Of a stretch of 38,065 bases of DNA, positions 4,646-30,826 are shown piece by piece. Position 1 is the stretch's first letter. Every line of letters begins with the position of its first letter. The DNA is taken from the IMG/VR virus record IMGVR_UViG_3300025087_000200, positions 1 to 38,065 of that record; one strand, 5' to 3'. The notes below the pieces were generated by a model. That model made no database searches and had not been told where the DNA came from. It saw nothing but the letters and a program-made list of their open reading frames with translations. Made by a program: the position numbers and the translations under genes. Origin of the DNA: a virus.

Positions 4646-5552
4646 AATATTCTTACCGCTTGTTATGAATGAGTTTGTAGTAGCAGAGGAGGAGGATAAT
4701 ATGAAACCAATTGTAGATATTAGCTACTGGCAGCAAGGCATTGATTACGATAAGTTTGCAGCCGGTATCAGCGGTGCAATTCTACGCGGTGCATACGGGA
4801 TCTGGAAAGATACCATGTTTGAAACGCACTACAAAGAATTACATGCACGGGGCGTGCCACTTGGAAGCTATCACTATATTATCGGGAACTATACCGGATT
4901 AGCGCAAGCGGACGTATTCAACCAGGCTATTTCTGGCAAGGAATTAAAACTAGGATTGTGGGATGACGTTGAAGATAGGGGCGTGACTACGGGATTATCT
5001 GCAAAAGTCGTGACTGAATATCACGGGAATATTGAAACGCTGGCACGTCGTAAAGTTGGCATTTATACGGGTGTGTATGCGTGGTCTGAAATCATGGGTA
5101 GTCAGTCGATGATTTATTCAGACCGTCCTTTGTGGATTGCACATTATGGCGTGACACAGCCAAGTTTACCAAGATATAGTGCCTGGACGAAATGGATATT
5201 ATGGCAGTGGTCAAGCAAAGGTAGAATTGACGGCTATTATTCTGATATTGACATGGATGTTTTCAATGGCACTGAAGAAGAATACAGAAAGTATTTCATT
5301 CTGAATGAAATCATTCCAACACCTCCACCCGTCATACCATCACCAGGTGTGATACTACCATCACTAAAGGTGATAAAAAACGTCTATGTCAGGACTACTC
5401 CTAGCCAGGCAATCAAAGAAATTGCAACCCGTTACCCTGGGGAAGTAGTCAAGGTATTGGAAATCAAGTCTTTCAATCCGGTATCAGTCTGGGTTCGTGA
5501 CGAACGCGGCTGGTCAGCTGTTGTACATTACGGCGTTAGGTACATGGAATAA
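4638..5552 (+). CDS. GH25 lysozyme endolysin with C-terminal SH3-like domain
   Basis: A muramidase that cuts the MurNAc-GlcNAc bond of peptidoglycan. The GH25 domain, about residues 24-215, begins with VDISYWQ, has GSYHYIIG and the catalytic-region pattern LGLWDDVED, and ends with WQWSSKGRIDGYYSDIDMDVF, all family signatures. A Pro-rich linker (TPPPVIPSPG) leads to a bacterial SH3-like domain (VYVRTTPS...GEVVKVLEI...W-V-R-D) that would bind the wall. Two starts are possible. The ATG at 4638 gives a 21-residue leader containing FLPLVMN. The ATG at 4701 has a much stronger GAGGAGGAGG site and starts exactly at the enzyme domain. The gene acts in host lysis or at the tail tip. Confidence 0.9.
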   Translation: MNEIFLPLVMNEFVVAEEEDNMKPIVDISYWQQGIDYDKFAAGISGAILRGAYGIWKDTMFETHYKELHARGVPLGSYHYIIGNYTGLAQADVFNQAISGKELKLGLWDDVEDRGVTTGLSAKVVTEYHGNIETLARRKVGIYTGVYAWSEIMGSQSMIYSDRPLWIAHYGVTQPSLPRYSAWTKWILWQWSSKGRIDGYYSDIDMDVFNGTEEEYRKYFILNEIIPTPPPVIPSPGVILPSLKVIKNVYVRTTPSQAIKEIATRYPGEVVKVLEIKSFNPVSVWVRDERGWSAVVHYGVRYME

Positions 5553-5604
5553 CAACCAATAATTAGTCTAAACCTAATTATCGTAGTATAGAATAGGGGC
5601 AACA

Positions 5605-6432
5605 TTGTCAAAAGCCAAAACAATACTAGCAATAATAGCAGATACACAAATTGGAAGTAGTACGGCTTTAGCACCACCAGAATTTAAAATACATAATAGA
5701 TCAACGGACGAAATACAAACAGTTCACCATAACCGACTTCAATCTTGGATATGGGAAAATTGGGTTGATTATTGGGACTATGTTAAATTTTTAGCAGAAT
5801 GGACAAGTAAGCGTAAACGCAAGCATAGAATAATTGTCGCGCACGTCGGAGATGTTATTGATGGTAATCACCATGGCACTTTGCAGATTATTCAGGACGT
5901 TGGAGATCAGGTCATTGTTGCCATGAATATTCTACAACCCATTGTTGATATTAGTGATGCCTTTTTTGGTGTGATTGGTACTGAAGCACATGCAGGAAAT
6001 TCAGGATCAGACGAAATTAGTATTTATAAAAATCTTGGCGTGACTGAGTACGGGCAAAATATAATGCTTGAGATTGACGGAAAACTTCACGACTTTGCAC
6101 ACCATGGTAGAACGGGGCAAAGACCATGGACTAGCACGGCAGCGAGTATCGGAGTTGAAGTCATGCTGGATTGTGGTCAACAGGGAATACCCTATCCCGA
6201 TTATATATGGCGCGGTCACAAGCACAATATTGACGATAGCGGTGATCGATTAGAAGGGACAAGGGTTATCTGCTTGCCATCATGGCAGCTTAAAACCAGC
6301 TTTACTCATAGACTTGTTGCAAACCGTACACGCTCCGACATTGGCGGTTACATCGTCGACGGTGGATTGGTTGACAATTCACGGGCAAGGTATAAGGGGC
6401 AACCGGATCAACGAAGGATTATAAAACCATGA
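5605..6432 (+). CDS. Calcineurin-like metallophosphoesterase
   Basis: A 275-residue protein with the two-metal phosphoesterase motifs in order: ADTQIG near residue 12, GDVIDGNHHG near 82, GTEAH near 124 (a variant of GNHD), DFAHHG near 163, and RGHKHN near 204. The substrate could be a phosphodiester in nucleic acid or a nucleotide. Phages often carry such enzymes without a known role. Translation appears to start at TTG, with AGGGG upstream; no in-frame ATG fits the N-terminal beta strand. It sits after the lysozyme, with a 52-base gap, and overlaps the next gene by ATGA. Confidence 0.82.
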   Translation: MSKAKTILAIIADTQIGSSTALAPPEFKIHNRSTDEIQTVHHNRLQSWIWENWVDYWDYVKFLAEWTSKRKRKHRIIVAHVGDVIDGNHHGTLQIIQDVGDQVIVAMNILQPIVDISDAFFGVIGTEAHAGNSGSDEISIYKNLGVTEYGQNIMLEIDGKLHDFAHHGRTGQRPWTSTAASIGVEVMLDCGQQGIPYPDYIWRGHKHNIDDSGDRLEGTRVICLPSWQLKTSFTHRLVANRTRSDIGGYIVDGGLVDNSRARYKGQPDQRRIIKP

Positions 6433-6732: not shown

Positions 6733-6761
6733 TTGACATCATAGAACGATTGTGATACTAT
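6733..6761 (+). promoter_or_regulatory. Strong sigma-70-type promoter
   Basis: TTGACA (6733-6738), a 17-bp spacer, then TACTAT (6756-6761). The spacer contains TAGAACGATTGTG, which also occurs in the capsid-operon promoter at 28892. Predicted start is near 6768. No credible gene follows before the terminator at 7164, so it drives a non-coding RNA. Confidence 0.85.
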
Positions 6762-6929
6762 ATTTGTAACAGTACCCGGCACGCCTCTGCTCGTATGAGG
6801 ACGCTCATAAAAGCACTGCGGACCGAGTTGGGTCGTTATGGCAGCAGATTTGAACTCATGAAGGCAGGTCTAACGATCAGCAGCAAGGCTTAAGACTTGT
6901 GGGTTCCTTCGTTCAAAATGTTGTCAACT

Positions 6930-7021
6930 TGGTGTGGCTTTGGTGTTATGGGCTAACACTACGCCGGATAGACTGGTGAGTATCCAGACAACGTATTCAG
7001 GTTCGACTCCTGACGCACCTA
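6930..7021 (+). other. tRNA-like cloverleaf inside the large RNA
   Basis: A closing stem GGTGTG/CGCACC (6931-6936 with 7014-7019) encloses three arms. The D-position arm has 8 bp and a 5-nt loop (6941-6961). The anticodon-position arm has 5 bp and a 10-nt loop (6966-6985). The third is a textbook T-arm, TCAGG-TTCGACT-CCTGA (6997-7013). The first two arms do not fit a normal tRNA, no anticodon can be read, and no CCA is encoded. It is either a tRNA mimic or a decayed tRNA absorbed into the larger RNA. Confidence 0.5.
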
Positions 7022-7163
7022 CCCCCTCAATCGCTTCGGTGGTTGAGTGCTACCCGAGAGGGTACGCGTCTCTGCTCTGCTGGAATAATAGTTGTGTACA
7101 GACTACCAGCATCAGAATTACGGATCTGAAATATGGCTAATCCATAAAGTAGGATTCACCCAG

Positions 7164-7193
7164 TCAGCCCCACATGACGGGGCTGATTTTGTT
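7164..7193 (+). terminator. Intrinsic terminator of the large RNA
   Basis: TCAGCCCC (7164-7171) pairs with GGGGCTGA (7179-7186) around a 7-nt loop and is followed by TTTTGTT. It is a strong rho-independent terminator. Confidence 0.88.
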
Positions 7194-7790
7194 AATGTCT
7201 ATTATCCTTTACAAGGTGTATTACCACTTACACGTTAAAACGATAATACAGCTTACACCTTATTACTTCTTTTTGTATGTGCAAACAATACAAAACTGTA
7301 TACTATATGACAACGAAAAGAAGCCGTCCTACTATCAGAACGATTACATGGTAATTTTGTCCTGCGTGTAAGAAGGTAACTTATCATAATTGATAATATA
7401 ATGCAATCAGATTGCCGAATTGTACAGCCAAAGTGCATAGTAAAACCTGTCCAAAGTGCATAGTTGTCATGTCGCATTTTCGCGGTTTTTAATACATGAG
7501 CATGTTGTCATGTAAAGATTTTTGATTATTTGCGATATAAGATGAGCATTGTTGTAACATCATTCTATCAAGGAAACTTGTTATCGTTTTTTCACTCCAG
7601 GAAGGAAATATTGACGCGTTCCCAATCTGCAATTTATTACCGATAATCGCGATAATTCGATAGTATCATGCCACATATTGCACATTGTTCCTTCGTGTTC
7701 TGTGTAGATTATCACGGATTACGTTTGTAATTTGTGAAGTGAAATGATGCTACAATCCTGCTAGGTTGAAAATAATCGCTCAAAAAACGC
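7194..7790. other. Gene-free AT-rich stretch with repeats
   Basis: No frame with a plausible start site and composition is seen on either strand for about 600 bp. It lies between the ends of two converging transcription units. It holds the inverted repeat TTATCA-TAAT-TGATAA (7381-7396), two 14-bp direct repeats (7428-7464), a repeated GTTGTCATGT (within 7462-7515), two ATGAGCAT(T)GTTGT copies around 7495-7560, and a CGATAATCGCGATAAT stretch near 7640. It could be a replication, packaging or partition site. Nothing decisive is visible. Confidence 0.6.
7428..7464. repeat. Two 14-bp direct repeats
   Basis: CCAAAGTGCATAGT occurs exactly at 7428-7441 and 7451-7464, a period of 23 bp (about two helical turns). 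This spacing would place bound proteins on the same face of the DNA, as in iterons or tandem operators. Confidence 0.7.
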
Positions 7791-7825
7791 AAAATAAAAG
7801 GATTAGCGTTATTGACTAATCCTTT
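7791..7825 (-). terminator. Terminator of the leftward operon
   Basis: A 10-bp perfect inverted repeat, AAAGGATTAG (7797-7806) with CTAATCCTTT (7816-7825). On the minus strand it is followed by TTTTATTTTG. It lies about 30 bp beyond the last leftward stop codon. Confidence 0.85.
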
Positions 7826-7855
7826 ATTGTAAAATCGCTGAAATGGCTGTTTTTT

Positions 7856-7999
7856 TTATCCGTAATATGTATCGTCCTTTTTTCCAAAGTTATCGCCACG
7901 TGCCGCCGCCTGACATATCGCGATTATGAACACACCGAATAGTGTACCGACAAACAAGCCGATAACAAACCAGGTGAAGCCAATCCAGAAGGGGGTCAT
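7856..7999 (-). CDS. Small single-span membrane protein (47 aa)
   Basis: A 47-residue protein whose first 30 residues are a membrane span (FWIGFTWFVIGLFVGTLFG...). A short polar tail ending GKKDDTYYG follows. It is the last gene of the leftward operon and starts at an ATGA overlap with the gene before it, which supports real translation. Function unknown; such early membrane peptides can affect host envelope or superinfection. Confidence 0.68.
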   Translation of the reverse strand: MTPFWIGFTWFVIGLFVGTLFGVFIIAICQAAARGDNFGKKDDTYYG

Positions 8000-11052: not shown

Positions 11053-11080
11053 TTGACATTTAGAAATTGTGTGCTATTAT
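11053..11080 (+). promoter_or_regulatory. Rightward early promoter
   Basis: TTGACA (11053-11058), a 16-bp spacer with TTTAGAAATTGTGTGC, and TATTAT (11075-11080). The TAGAA and TGTGC elements are shared with the promoters at 6733, 17252 and 28892. It drives the replication operon. Confidence 0.85.
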
Positions 11081-17251: not shown

Positions 17252-17280
17252 TTGACAACATAGAATAAATGTGCTAATGT
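17252..17280 (+). promoter_or_regulatory. Promoter before tnpB
   Basis: TTGACA (17252-17257), 17-bp spacer with ATAGAA, TAATGT (17275-17280) preceded by TGTGC. It matches the phage's own TATTGACA/TGTGC promoter set, and TATCTATTGACA is shared exactly with the capsid promoter at 28892. Confidence 0.75.
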
Positions 17281-17319
17281 TATTTTGAGTAAAAGCAATT
17301 TATAGTGTTGGAGAAAATA

Positions 17320-18384
17320 ATGATATTAACCTATAAGGTTAAGCACAACACAGATTTATCAACAGAACTGTCAAAAGCACGACAAGTTGCTGATTTTGCT
17401 ATTAATAACAGGGATAAATTATCTAGTAAATGGGTAAAACATTTTGGGCTTAAATCTGCTATTTCTAATCAAATATTGAGAAAATATGGAAAAAATAAAA
17501 AATGTAAATCTGTACAATCAGTTAAGTTAATAATTCCTAATCAATGTATAAAAATAATAGATAAACGAATTAGAGTAATTCCACTAAATATAAATCTAAA
17601 ATTAGATAAGGAATTTGAAAAAGTTAATTTAATCGAAATGGATGAAAAATATGCTTACATTTCTGTAACCATTAAAGAACAAGAAACATTTAAACCAATT
17701 AACCATATTGGCGTTGATTTAAATGCAACAAGTCATTGTGCGGTAGTAGCCATCAAGGAAACAGGCAAGGTATTTAAACTTGGTAAGTCAGCTCAACACC
17801 AACATAATAAATATAAATTTATTAGACGCGATCTACAGAAAAAAGGTAAATATAAAAAAGTTAAACAAATTAAAAATCGTGAAAACAGAATAATTACAGA
17901 TATAAATCACAAGATATCTAGATTTATAGTTAATCAAGCTGTTTCAAATAAGGCTAGTATAAATCTAGAAAATTTAAACAATGTTAGAAAAAATAAAAAC
18001 CATAAAAAATCCTTTAATCATACCCTCCACACTTGGAGCTTTTATCAACTAAAACAATTTATAAAATATAAGGCAACTCTTGCGGGTGTGACATTATCCT
18101 TAATTGATCCAGCTTATACGAGCAAATGTTGCTCTATTTGTGGGACTATTGGAGATAGAAAAGGTAAATATTTTAAGTGCTCACATTGTGGTCACGTAGA
18201 ACATGCTGATGTAAATGCGGCTTTTAATATAGCGTTTCCATCTCAAAGTATTGTTCAATTGCAAGCAGAAAGAGATGCTTGTAAGGGGAACTCTGATATC
18301 CCCCAAGGCGCTCCGTTAATAAGCCAAACGACACTAAAAATCCAACAATTGAAAAACAGTGGATATGTCAGCCTCCGGAGGTAA
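17320..18384 (+). CDS. tnpB: TnpB-type RNA-guided nuclease (IS200/IS605 OrfB family)
   Basis: A 354-residue protein. The RuvC-like core is intact: HIGVDLNATSHC (motif I Asp), INLENLNNVRK (motif II Glu) and HADVNAAFNIA (motif III Asp). A zinc finger lies between II and III (SKCCSICG...FKCSHCGH). TnpB proteins cut DNA guided by an omega-RNA encoded over their 3' end. No TnpA lies nearby, so it cannot move itself by the usual route. The region is AT-richer than its flanks, a sign of transfer. GGAG lies six bases before the ATG. It has a phage-like promoter and so may serve the phage, for example as homing or anti-competitor nuclease. Family and active site are clear; the role is inferred. Confidence 0.9.
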   Translation: MILTYKVKHNTDLSTELSKARQVADFAINNRDKLSSKWVKHFGLKSAISNQILRKYGKNKKCKSVQSVKLIIPNQCIKIIDKRIRVIPLNINLKLDKEFEKVNLIEMDEKYAYISVTIKEQETFKPINHIGVDLNATSHCAVVAIKETGKVFKLGKSAQHQHNKYKFIRRDLQKKGKYKKVKQIKNRENRIITDINHKISRFIVNQAVSNKASINLENLNNVRKNKNHKKSFNHTLHTWSFYQLKQFIKYKATLAGVTLSLIDPAYTSKCCSICGTIGDRKGKYFKCSHCGHVEHADVNAAFNIAFPSQSIVQLQAERDACKGNSDIPQGAPLISQTTLKIQQLKNSGYVSLRR

Positions 18385-28891: not shown

Positions 28892-28920
28892 TTGACAAGT
28901 TAGAACGATTGTGCTAGTAT
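28892..28920 (+). promoter_or_regulatory. Promoter of the capsid operon
   Basis: TTGACA (28892-28897), 17-bp spacer containing TAGAACGATTGTGC, TAGTAT (28915-28920). The spacer element is the same as in the promoter of the 425-nt RNA. Confidence 0.85.
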
Positions 28921-28926
28921 GCTAAT

Positions 28927-29065
28927 AATTCAATATCTGGTGTCAGGATAGCTTATAGGCTAGGGGACTAGCGACAAGCGAAAAGGACACAAACAAAGCG
29001 CATTAGGCTTGTAAGCGGCGCAGGTAACTTTATACCTGCGCCAAATTTATTTTAAGGAGCTAAAC
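28927..29065 (+). ncRNA. Structured 5' leader of the capsid gene
   Basis: About 140 nt of untranslated leader. It has a 5-bp hairpin GCTAG-GGGA-CTAGC (GNRA-type loop), a possible ACAAGC/GCTTGT pairing around it, and a 10-bp GC-rich hairpin GGCGCAGGTA/TACCTGCGCC (29017-29042) that ends about 20 bases before the ATG. The last hairpin is followed by AAATTTATTTT, so it could terminate, but it may instead stabilise the capsid mRNA. No known riboswitch recognised. Confidence 0.55.
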
Positions 29066-30826
29066 ATGAATGATGACAAGAACGAAACCCACATGATGAC
29101 AGATGGTGTTGTCTATATGGGTGACGCGGTGAAAGCAACACGTACAGCCGACGGGGTAAAACTTGCCGGATATTTAGTGCGCTTCACAAACGAAAATGAG
29201 CCAGATTTGACAGGTGATTATTTCGAGAAAGATACCGACTTCGACATTGACGAATTTCCAATCAAGAAATCGACGTACTTCAATCATGGCTTTGATGACC
29301 ACTTCAAACGACAAAAGCTAGGCAAGGCAACATTATCTATGGATGACTTTGGCATTTGGGCAGAAACAATCGTCCAGGAACGTGACGAATACGAAAAGTT
29401 TATCACGGAGCTTGCAGATCAAGGCAAGTTGGGCTGGTCATCCGGTTCTGTTGGTCATCTTATCGAGCGCAAACAACTGAACGAAGAAATCTACAAAATC
29501 ACATACTGGCCAATCGCAGAAGCGTCATTGACACACACACCAGCCGAGTTTAGAAATTCAGTTATACCGATTAAGTCCCTGATGAAACAACAGCCAGAGG
29601 TGTCAGAGAATAGTGACACAGTGCAGGACGTGAAATCAGAACCAATCGTCGAAACACAATCAATCATACAAAACATTGAGAAAGAGGAACACACAATGGA
29701 AAAAGAAGAACTCCAAGCATTGATTGACGCCACTACAAAATCAGCAATTGAGGAATATCGCAAGTCCGAACCTGCCGTAAAGTCAGAGAGCGTCACAGTT
29801 GTAAAGGATGAAGCAGATCAGCCGTTTAAAACAGCCGGGGAATTTTTCAAGGCCGTCAAAAATGCTGCTCTGTATCCATCCAGTCAGGACGTGCGTTTAT
29901 TGCCGTTGAAAGCAGCCACGGGCATGAGCGAAGGAACCCCTGCTGATGGTGGGTACTTAGTACCTACTAACTACGCTGGTGGAATCGTTGAGCGTATGTA
30001 TCAGTTAGGCAAAGTCATCAACCGCGTATCGAAAGATTCAATCAGCGGAAACAACATGACATACTTTGCCGTTGACGAATCCAGCCGCGCTTCAACCCGT
30101 CAGGGTGGAATCTTAGGCTACTGGTTAGCAGAAGCAGGAACCAAAACATCCAGCAAGCCAGCATTTCGCCAGGTTGATTTGAAGCTCAAGAAAGTTGCCG
30201 CGTTAGCTTATGCAACCGACGAATTATTGAGTGACGTGAAAGCGTTGGAATCATGGCTTAACCGAACCGTACCAAATGAATTGATCTTCCAATCCGAAGA
30301 TGCAATCTTCAACGGTAACGGCGTCGCGAAACCCCTGGGTATTATGCAGTCACCTGCTTTGGTGTCACCGCTTCGTCTTGATGCCAGCAAAGTACAATTA
30401 GCTGACATTCTTACCATGTGGTCGCGTCGTTGGGCTGGTGTAGATGATTATGCCTGGTTTATCAATCAGGATGTAACTCCACAGTTATATCAGATTGGTA
30501 GCACCTACCAGAATCTTTACATGCCACAAGGTTTTGCAGGAAACCCGTTCGCTACATTGATGGGAAAACCTATCATCGAAGTTGAATACGCTCAAACAAT
30601 GGGAACCACAGGCGACATCGTGTTAGCCGCAATGAGCCAGTATCAAGCGATTGATAAGGGTATCGAATCCGCTTCAAGTATTCACGTCGCCTTTACCAGT
30701 GACCAGACTTGTTTCAGATTCGTTTATCGTATCGACGGCGCTCCGATGTGGAATAGTGCATTGACCCCATTCAAGGGCAGCAATACACAATCCCCATTCG
30801 TTTCATTAGCTACCGCATCTTCATAA
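29066..30826 (+). CDS. Prohead protease fused to major capsid protein
   Basis: A 586-residue fusion. Residues 15-172 are an HK97-type prohead serine protease: VKLAGYLVRFTNENE, FNHGFDD (catalytic His), KLGWSSGSVGH (catalytic Ser), then WPIAEASLTHTPAEFRN. Residues 200-245 are an acidic helical linker like a scaffold delta domain. Residues 255-586 are an HK97-fold major capsid protein: GTPADGGYLVPTNYAGGIVERM, ELIFQSEDAIFNGNG, GKPIIEVEYAQT and ALTPFKG. An internal ATG at 29696 with its own GAGG eight bases upstream would yield the capsid part alone (376 residues). AAGGAG precedes the main start. Confidence 0.9.
   Translation: MNDDKNETHMMTDGVVYMGDAVKATRTADGVKLAGYLVRFTNENEPDLTGDYFEKDTDFDIDEFPIKKSTYFNHGFDDHFKRQKLGKATLSMDDFGIWAETIVQERDEYEKFITELADQGKLGWSSGSVGHLIERKQLNEEIYKITYWPIAEASLTHTPAEFRNSVIPIKSLMKQQPEVSENSDTVQDVKSEPIVETQSIIQNIEKEEHTMEKEELQALIDATTKSAIEEYRKSEPAVKSESVTVVKDEADQPFKTAGEFFKAVKNAALYPSSQDVRLLPLKAATGMSEGTPADGGYLVPTNYAGGIVERMYQLGKVINRVSKDSISGNNMTYFAVDESSRASTRQGGILGYWLAEAGTKTSSKPAFRQVDLKLKKVAALAYATDELLSDVKALESWLNRTVPNELIFQSEDAIFNGNGVAKPLGIMQSPALVSPLRLDASKVQLADILTMWSRRWAGVDDYAWFINQDVTPQLYQIGSTYQNLYMPQGFAGNPFATLMGKPIIEVEYAQTMGTTGDIVLAAMSQYQAIDKGIESASSIHVAFTSDQTCFRFVYRIDGAPMWNSALTPFKGSNTQSPFVSLATASS
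29684..29698 (+). promoter_or_regulatory. Internal ribosome-binding site and start in the capsid gene
   Basis: GAGG (29684-29687), 8 bases, then an in-frame ATG (29696-29698), codon 211, at MEKEELQAL. It lies just after the protease domain and at the start of the linker, so internal initiation would make excess scaffold/capsid without protease. Confidence 0.6.

Follow-up and report, generated by a model that had tools for sequence, protein, structure and literature searches.

An intergenic stretch at positions 6768-7193 of a 38-kb virus record raises the question of what RNA the phage makes there, and what that RNA would be for. The window, i.e., the whole 38,065-nt stretch of DNA that was analysed, contains genes for HK97-type capsid, portal, terminase, and endolysin. 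The RNA unit is located 3' of the endolysin gene (4638) and two + strand genes (5605 and 6429). The earlier note had described it as a discrete, highly structured, tRNA-linked noncoding phage transcript with its own promoter and terminator, possibly a new class. The features assigned to the locus are as follows.

6733 to 6761, + strand: promoter, TTGACA-17-TACTAT with TG before the -10 element, found by consensus scan (10/12 matches)
6772 to 6835, + strand: 5' domain, consisting of an ACCCGGC/GTTGGGT helix, an asymmetric loop (A against GACCGA), an inner CGC/GCG helix, and a hairpin
6840 to 6930, + strand: DUF3800-VII RNA (RF02967), divergent and without AAGCGC; 45.1 bits with Rfam against a cut-off of 36.2
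6931 to 7019, + strand: tRNA-like element, with an acceptor stem (6931-6936 with 7014-7019) and a T arm (6997-7013); the bottom half is not that of a tRNA
7026 to 7047, + strand: hairpin with a CUUCGG loop, from the fold of 7020-7070; kept in L138 and L086
7048 to 7067, + strand: hairpin with a GNRA (GAGA) loop, from the same fold; CCCGTGAGGG in L138 and L086
7068 to 7161, + strand: 3' domain, with the stem TGCTGG/CCAGCA, a CTAAT-loop hairpin at 7132-7146, and then GTAGGATTCACCC
7162 to 7188, + strand: intrinsic terminator, 10 pairs followed by a T tract; kept in relatives

Most of the general description in the earlier note stands. The consensus promoter and the strong terminator are both present, and the terminator region (7150-7195) folds with a z of -3.74. 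The 428-nt strand folds at -151.2 kcal/mol, with a z of -3.16 against shuffles, which agrees with a highly structured RNA. The submodules with strong z are the hairpin pair at 7020-7070 (z -3.37), which contains the UUCG and GNRA loops noted earlier, and the terminator. The remaining submodules are moderate to weak.

The promoter contains the block AGAACGATTGTG, which recurs at 28902. Near-identical promoter blocks are observed at 28892 of the window, upstream of the capsid gene, and at 5107 of the related phage locus L086, and looser ones at 11053 and 17252 of the window. The similar blocks at 28892, 11053, and 17252 indicate repeated use of this promoter type by the phage. At 28892-29055, the ~100 nt that follow the block are structured (z -4.5), and the capsid gene at 29066 is immediately preceded by a strong GC hairpin, GGCGCAGGTAACTTTATACCTGCGCC. 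This is possibly a second small RNA or a leader of the capsid gene. A copy of the block is also located just upstream of a TnpB-like gene (17252-18384), whose protein has a Cas12f1-like/TnpB zinc-binding domain (PF07282). The stretch from the RNA terminator to the convergent early genes (7200-7860, ~660 bases) shows no convincing gene, several inverted repeats, and patchy conservation in relatives.

The transcript could in principle serve a small protein or a downstream gene. A 68-aa open frame does exist at 6934-7140, but an in-frame TGA breaks its homologous stretch in three relatives (L138, L141, and L086), and the frame overlaps the tRNA top half and the hairpins. Coding potential of this frame was thus ruled out, in line with the earlier statement that there is no credible coding frame. 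A leader function is opposed by the terminator at 7162 and by the lack of a + strand gene close downstream. It is very improbable that either a small protein or a leader is the point of the transcript.

The claim of a new class fared differently. The earlier note had proposed an Rfam search and had named a hit to a known family as evidence against its claim; the search of the whole window gave exactly one match, DUF3800-VII at 6840-6930, which spans the full RF02967 model (1-90). These 90 nt in the middle of the unit are a member of the DUF3800-VII family, and novelty is lost for them. It survives in part for the 5' domain, the hairpin block, and the 3' domain, none of which matches Rfam, and where its basis is a small set of closely related phages. 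The RNA is indeed neither GOLLD nor ROOL, since Rfam matched it to neither of them, be it at the cut-off or with E relaxed to 5. The blastn search of the RNA locus against 50,697 phage records gave no match.

The window copy of DUF3800-VII keeps 27 of the 29 family pairs at 44% identity, and 14 of them are changed on both sides relative to the consensus. When the partners were slid by up to four positions, at most 14 pairs were left, and 5000 mononucleotide shuffles gave at most 21. Fitting the alignment to the structure biases the pair count upwards, but the gap to the controls is large. The pair plan was taken from Rfam; a structure from RNAalifold on a MAFFT alignment was poor (12 pairs) and was set aside. 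The junction blocks AGGC, GCAGC, and GTGGGNTCCT of the three-way junction are kept. The AAGCGC motif 5' of the junction, a feature derived in this analysis and outside the Rfam membership rule, is near-invariant in the 28 sequences collected, and the window has a short bulge instead. With 45.1 bits against 61-77 bits, the window copy is the lowest-scoring and most divergent member among those collected. A nearby DUF3800 gene is the usual context of this RNA, though not required by Rfam, and no PF12686 (DUF3800) gene was found in the 38-kb window record.

Directly abutting the 3' end of DUF3800-VII is the tRNA-like element. Its acceptor stem (GGTGTG/CGCACC, 6 bp) and its perfect T arm (TCAGGTTCGACTCCTGA) resemble those of a tRNA. 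The cloverleaf reported earlier is reduced to these two parts, as neither ARAGORN nor the Rfam tRNA model (RF00005) calls a tRNA in the window element, and the whole element folds no better than shuffles (z -0.6 to -0.9). The elements in L086 and L146 share the acceptor (TTGGTGTG/CACACCAA) and the T stem, and their bottom halves are unrelated and of different length. These tRNA-top-half elements (L086 5748-5880 and L146 11320-11460) are about 120-130 nt in all and are not called as tRNAs either. The tRNA top half also brought a tmRNA into consideration, an idea that was dropped because ARAGORN detected none in either the window or its relatives and Rfam gave no match in the window.

Relatives of the locus were found via the 72-aa and 275-aa neighbour genes and via RNA patterns. 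In the slot occupied in the window by DUF3800-VII and the tRNA-like element, they hold tRNA-Thr(UGU) or nothing. L138 and L141 have the 5' domain, hairpins, 3' domain, and terminator, with no insert. In L082, a related 5' domain is followed by tRNA-Thr(UGU) and the 3' end, and L083 has tRNA-Thr, hairpins, and the 3' domain. L146 has the 5' domain, a tRNA-like element, an open frame, and tRNA-Thr. In L145 and L147, the 5' domain is followed by a terminator. L086 has two tandem transcripts, one with the 5' domain and the other with a tRNA-like element, tRNA-Thr, and the hairpin pair of the window. The L086 locus (5011-6154) is duplicated in tandem, each copy having its own promoter and terminator and different modules. 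No close relative carries DUF3800-VII, which in this phage clade is observed only in the window sequence.

In the alignment of the 5' domain (window, L138, L086, L145, L146, and L082), 98.3% of cells are paired. Among these six sequences, one pair occurs as GC, CG, and AU, and the covariation score was reached by 9 of 500 shuffles. The 3' domain is common to the window, L082, L083, and L138; the stem of its CTAAT hairpin is TATGG/CCATA in three phages and CGGG/CCCG in L083. A conserved probable pseudoknot is seen in the 3' domain of L083 (7160-7240), formed by a CTCTAGC/GCTGGAG hairpin whose loop GGAC would pair with a downstream GTCC. It is also found in L138 and is absent from the window version. 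A resemblance to RNase P in L083 (GGAGGAAAGTCC) was dropped, as Rfam gave no match at E up to 5.

The locus is therefore disfavoured as one 425-nt unit, since its modules occur apart; it is a phage noncoding transcript of exchangeable structured modules. The link to tRNA claimed in the earlier note is borne out by the relatives, which carry tRNA-Thr at the same locus (L082, L083, L086, and L146).

Two readings of this architecture were weighed. The modules may fold into one ornate GOLLD/ROOL-like RNA in which DUF3800-VII and the tRNA are variable domains. The shared 5' and 3' domains flanking a variable insert with tRNA are consistent with it, and GOLLD also has tRNAs in its linker (PMC12286853). 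It is nevertheless unlikely, because the 5' domain stands alone before a terminator in L145 and L147, L086 has the hairpin and terminator modules in separate places, and there is no GOLLD or ROOL match. Alternatively, the locus may supply or mature tRNAs, with processing hairpins and degenerate tRNAs, and DUF3800-VII would serve RNA processing or stability and not anti-defence. The tRNA-Thr genes of the four relatives and the tRNA top half directly 3' of DUF3800-VII point in this direction. We consider it improbable, as the window retains no functional tRNA and DUF3800-VII at loci elsewhere is tied to the DUF3800 gene, with no link to tRNAs.

The DUF3800-VII family was reportedly first described by Weinberg and colleagues in 2017, and no role was assigned to DUF3800-linked RNAs in the literature searched. 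The RNA pattern gave 25 bacterial loci, 23 of them credible, from Verrucomicrobiota, Burkholderiales, and a few others. These loci were found by the pattern on the RNA alone, so that DUF3800 genes without the RNA are outside every count. In 16 of the 23 credible loci, a convergent DUF3800 ORF is located just beyond the RNA, some of the ORFs being cut by the locus end. Four loci (L103, L104, L109, and L113) have only a C-terminal piece of the gene, and no DUF3800 gene was seen at L105, L111, and L115. As for the virus collection, an initial, loose pattern scan yielded 79 loci, most of them chance matches; five passed a stem filter, and L069 was recovered as a sixth with the Rfam model. The contigs L039, L063, and L132 contain the RNA and a convergent DUF3800 gene. 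The PF12686 gene is absent from the whole records L042, L062, and L069 (27-42 kb), and the 6.6-kb fragment L006 likewise contains no DUF3800 gene; other records, too, may be incomplete. L042 and L062 keep the last codons of the gene. At L042/L062, L103, L104, L109, and L113, where at most a C-terminal remnant of the gene is left, the RNA is nevertheless intact. The RNAs from L063 and L132 gave no match against phages, and that from L063 none against plasmids. A packaging RNA was raised by the position of the L006 RNA upstream of a terminase; other loci give no support.

The predicted structure of the L132 DUF3800 protein (mean pLDDT 72) has RNase HII as its best match (E 3.7e-5), in agreement with a published RNase H fold of a DUF3800 domain (PMC10910872). 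PADLOC gave no match for the two DUF3800 proteins tested.

Several DUF3800-VII loci are inside or beside restriction-modification, PrrC, or AIPR genes. L107 (486-7854) shows the order hsdM-hsdS-DUF3800-RNA-hsdR, and L124 (513-5446) the order PrrC-RhuM-DUF3800-RNA-hsdM; both are inside type I restriction-modification loci. Type IIG enzymes adjoin the pair in L119, L123, and L127, a type III system is found in L106, and AIPR in L118. The neighbours in L110 and L121 are PADLOC candidates, and S24 repressors are near the pair in two prophage contigs (L039 and L063). The neighbourhood control, which consisted of ten proteins only, gave two partial ATPase-type hits.

Protein-RNA pairs in defence neighbourhoods, together with solitary RNA copies in phages, would fit RNA mimicry. 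The DUF3800 protein and its RNA may form a defence or toxin-antitoxin pair, and the phage would make a solitary copy of DUF3800-VII during infection. Because the tRNA-like element abuts its 3' end, RNase P cleavage there could free the RNA from its precursor. The freed copy might then use the conserved three-way junction to bind the DUF3800 protein of the host and keep it inactive. Our tentative preference, somewhat short of an even chance, is that the solitary, altered, defence-linked RNA carried in this array of noncoding RNA cassettes counters a host DUF3800 system as a decoy or antidote. The wider proposal, that DUF3800 proteins and DUF3800-VII constitute an undescribed ribonucleoprotein defence, to which phages answer with a solitary altered RNA in a tRNA-swapped cassette site, is somewhat less probable.

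The points counted for the decoy are the RF02967 match, the 27 of 29 pairs kept with 14 changed on both sides, the modular relatives with tRNA-Thr in the slot, the lack of a DUF3800 gene in the window, the convergent DUF3800 gene at most loci elsewhere, the defence neighbours, the RNase HII fold match, the RNA loci without gene, and the precedents of RNA mimicry by phages. The loss of AAGCGC and the status as the most divergent copy count against it, and a decaying remnant would show the same. The main rival is a neutral remnant: a DUF3800 gene and its RNA would once have been acquired and the gene lost, leaving the RNA as a passenger beside useful modules. Gene loss with the RNA staying is seen at the loci with C-terminal remnants, and the low score of the window copy and its single occurrence in the phage clade point the same way. 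Against this, the window has no trace of a DUF3800 gene, decay would not leave 27 of 29 pairs intact though 56% of positions differ, and the RNA belongs to a unit with a promoter and a terminator of its own, at a site that otherwise holds tRNA-Thr. A passenger is therefore rather unlikely, though a serious contender.

That one such family occurs among restriction and abortive-infection genes, next to an RNase-HII-like protein, and also solo in phages makes orphan RNAs open to testing as partners in defence and counter-defence. Related phage backbones that swap tRNA-Thr for DUF3800-VII RNA at the cassette locus also provide a natural experiment.

The window RNA can be compared with several known systems. 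Like other members of RF02967, it is above the cut-off in sequence and structure and has the junction blocks; unlike the usual DUF3800-VII, it is without a DUF3800 gene and AAGCGC and lies within a longer transcript beside a tRNA top half. Like GOLLD and ROOL (PMC12286853), it is a phage RNA that lies near tRNAs and combines a conserved portion with a variable one able to hold a tRNA, but it has no Rfam match to them and is about 425 nt, split into modules that occur apart. Phage tRNAs can evade tRNA-cutting defences (PMC10264068 and PMC11555353), and the tRNA-Thr in the same slot of sister phages would therefore agree with an anti-defence reading. The relatives hold tRNA-Thr(UGU) in the cassette position, whereas neither ARAGORN nor RF00005 recognises a functional tRNA in the window element. 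Racrs are RNA anti-CRISPRs, solitary repeat units acting against CRISPR-Cas (PMC10651486). The window RNA is not a CRISPR repeat and its interaction with a host protein is a proposed one, but it is likewise a solitary phage copy of a structured RNA used by a host system. The pseudo-ToxI RNA of phage PhiTE mimics the RNA partner and acts against ToxN of ToxIN (PMC3475682). The RNA and protein families are different here and the decoy function of the window RNA is putative, but the proposed logic is the same: the phage bears the RNA counterpart of a bacterial protein as a solitary copy.
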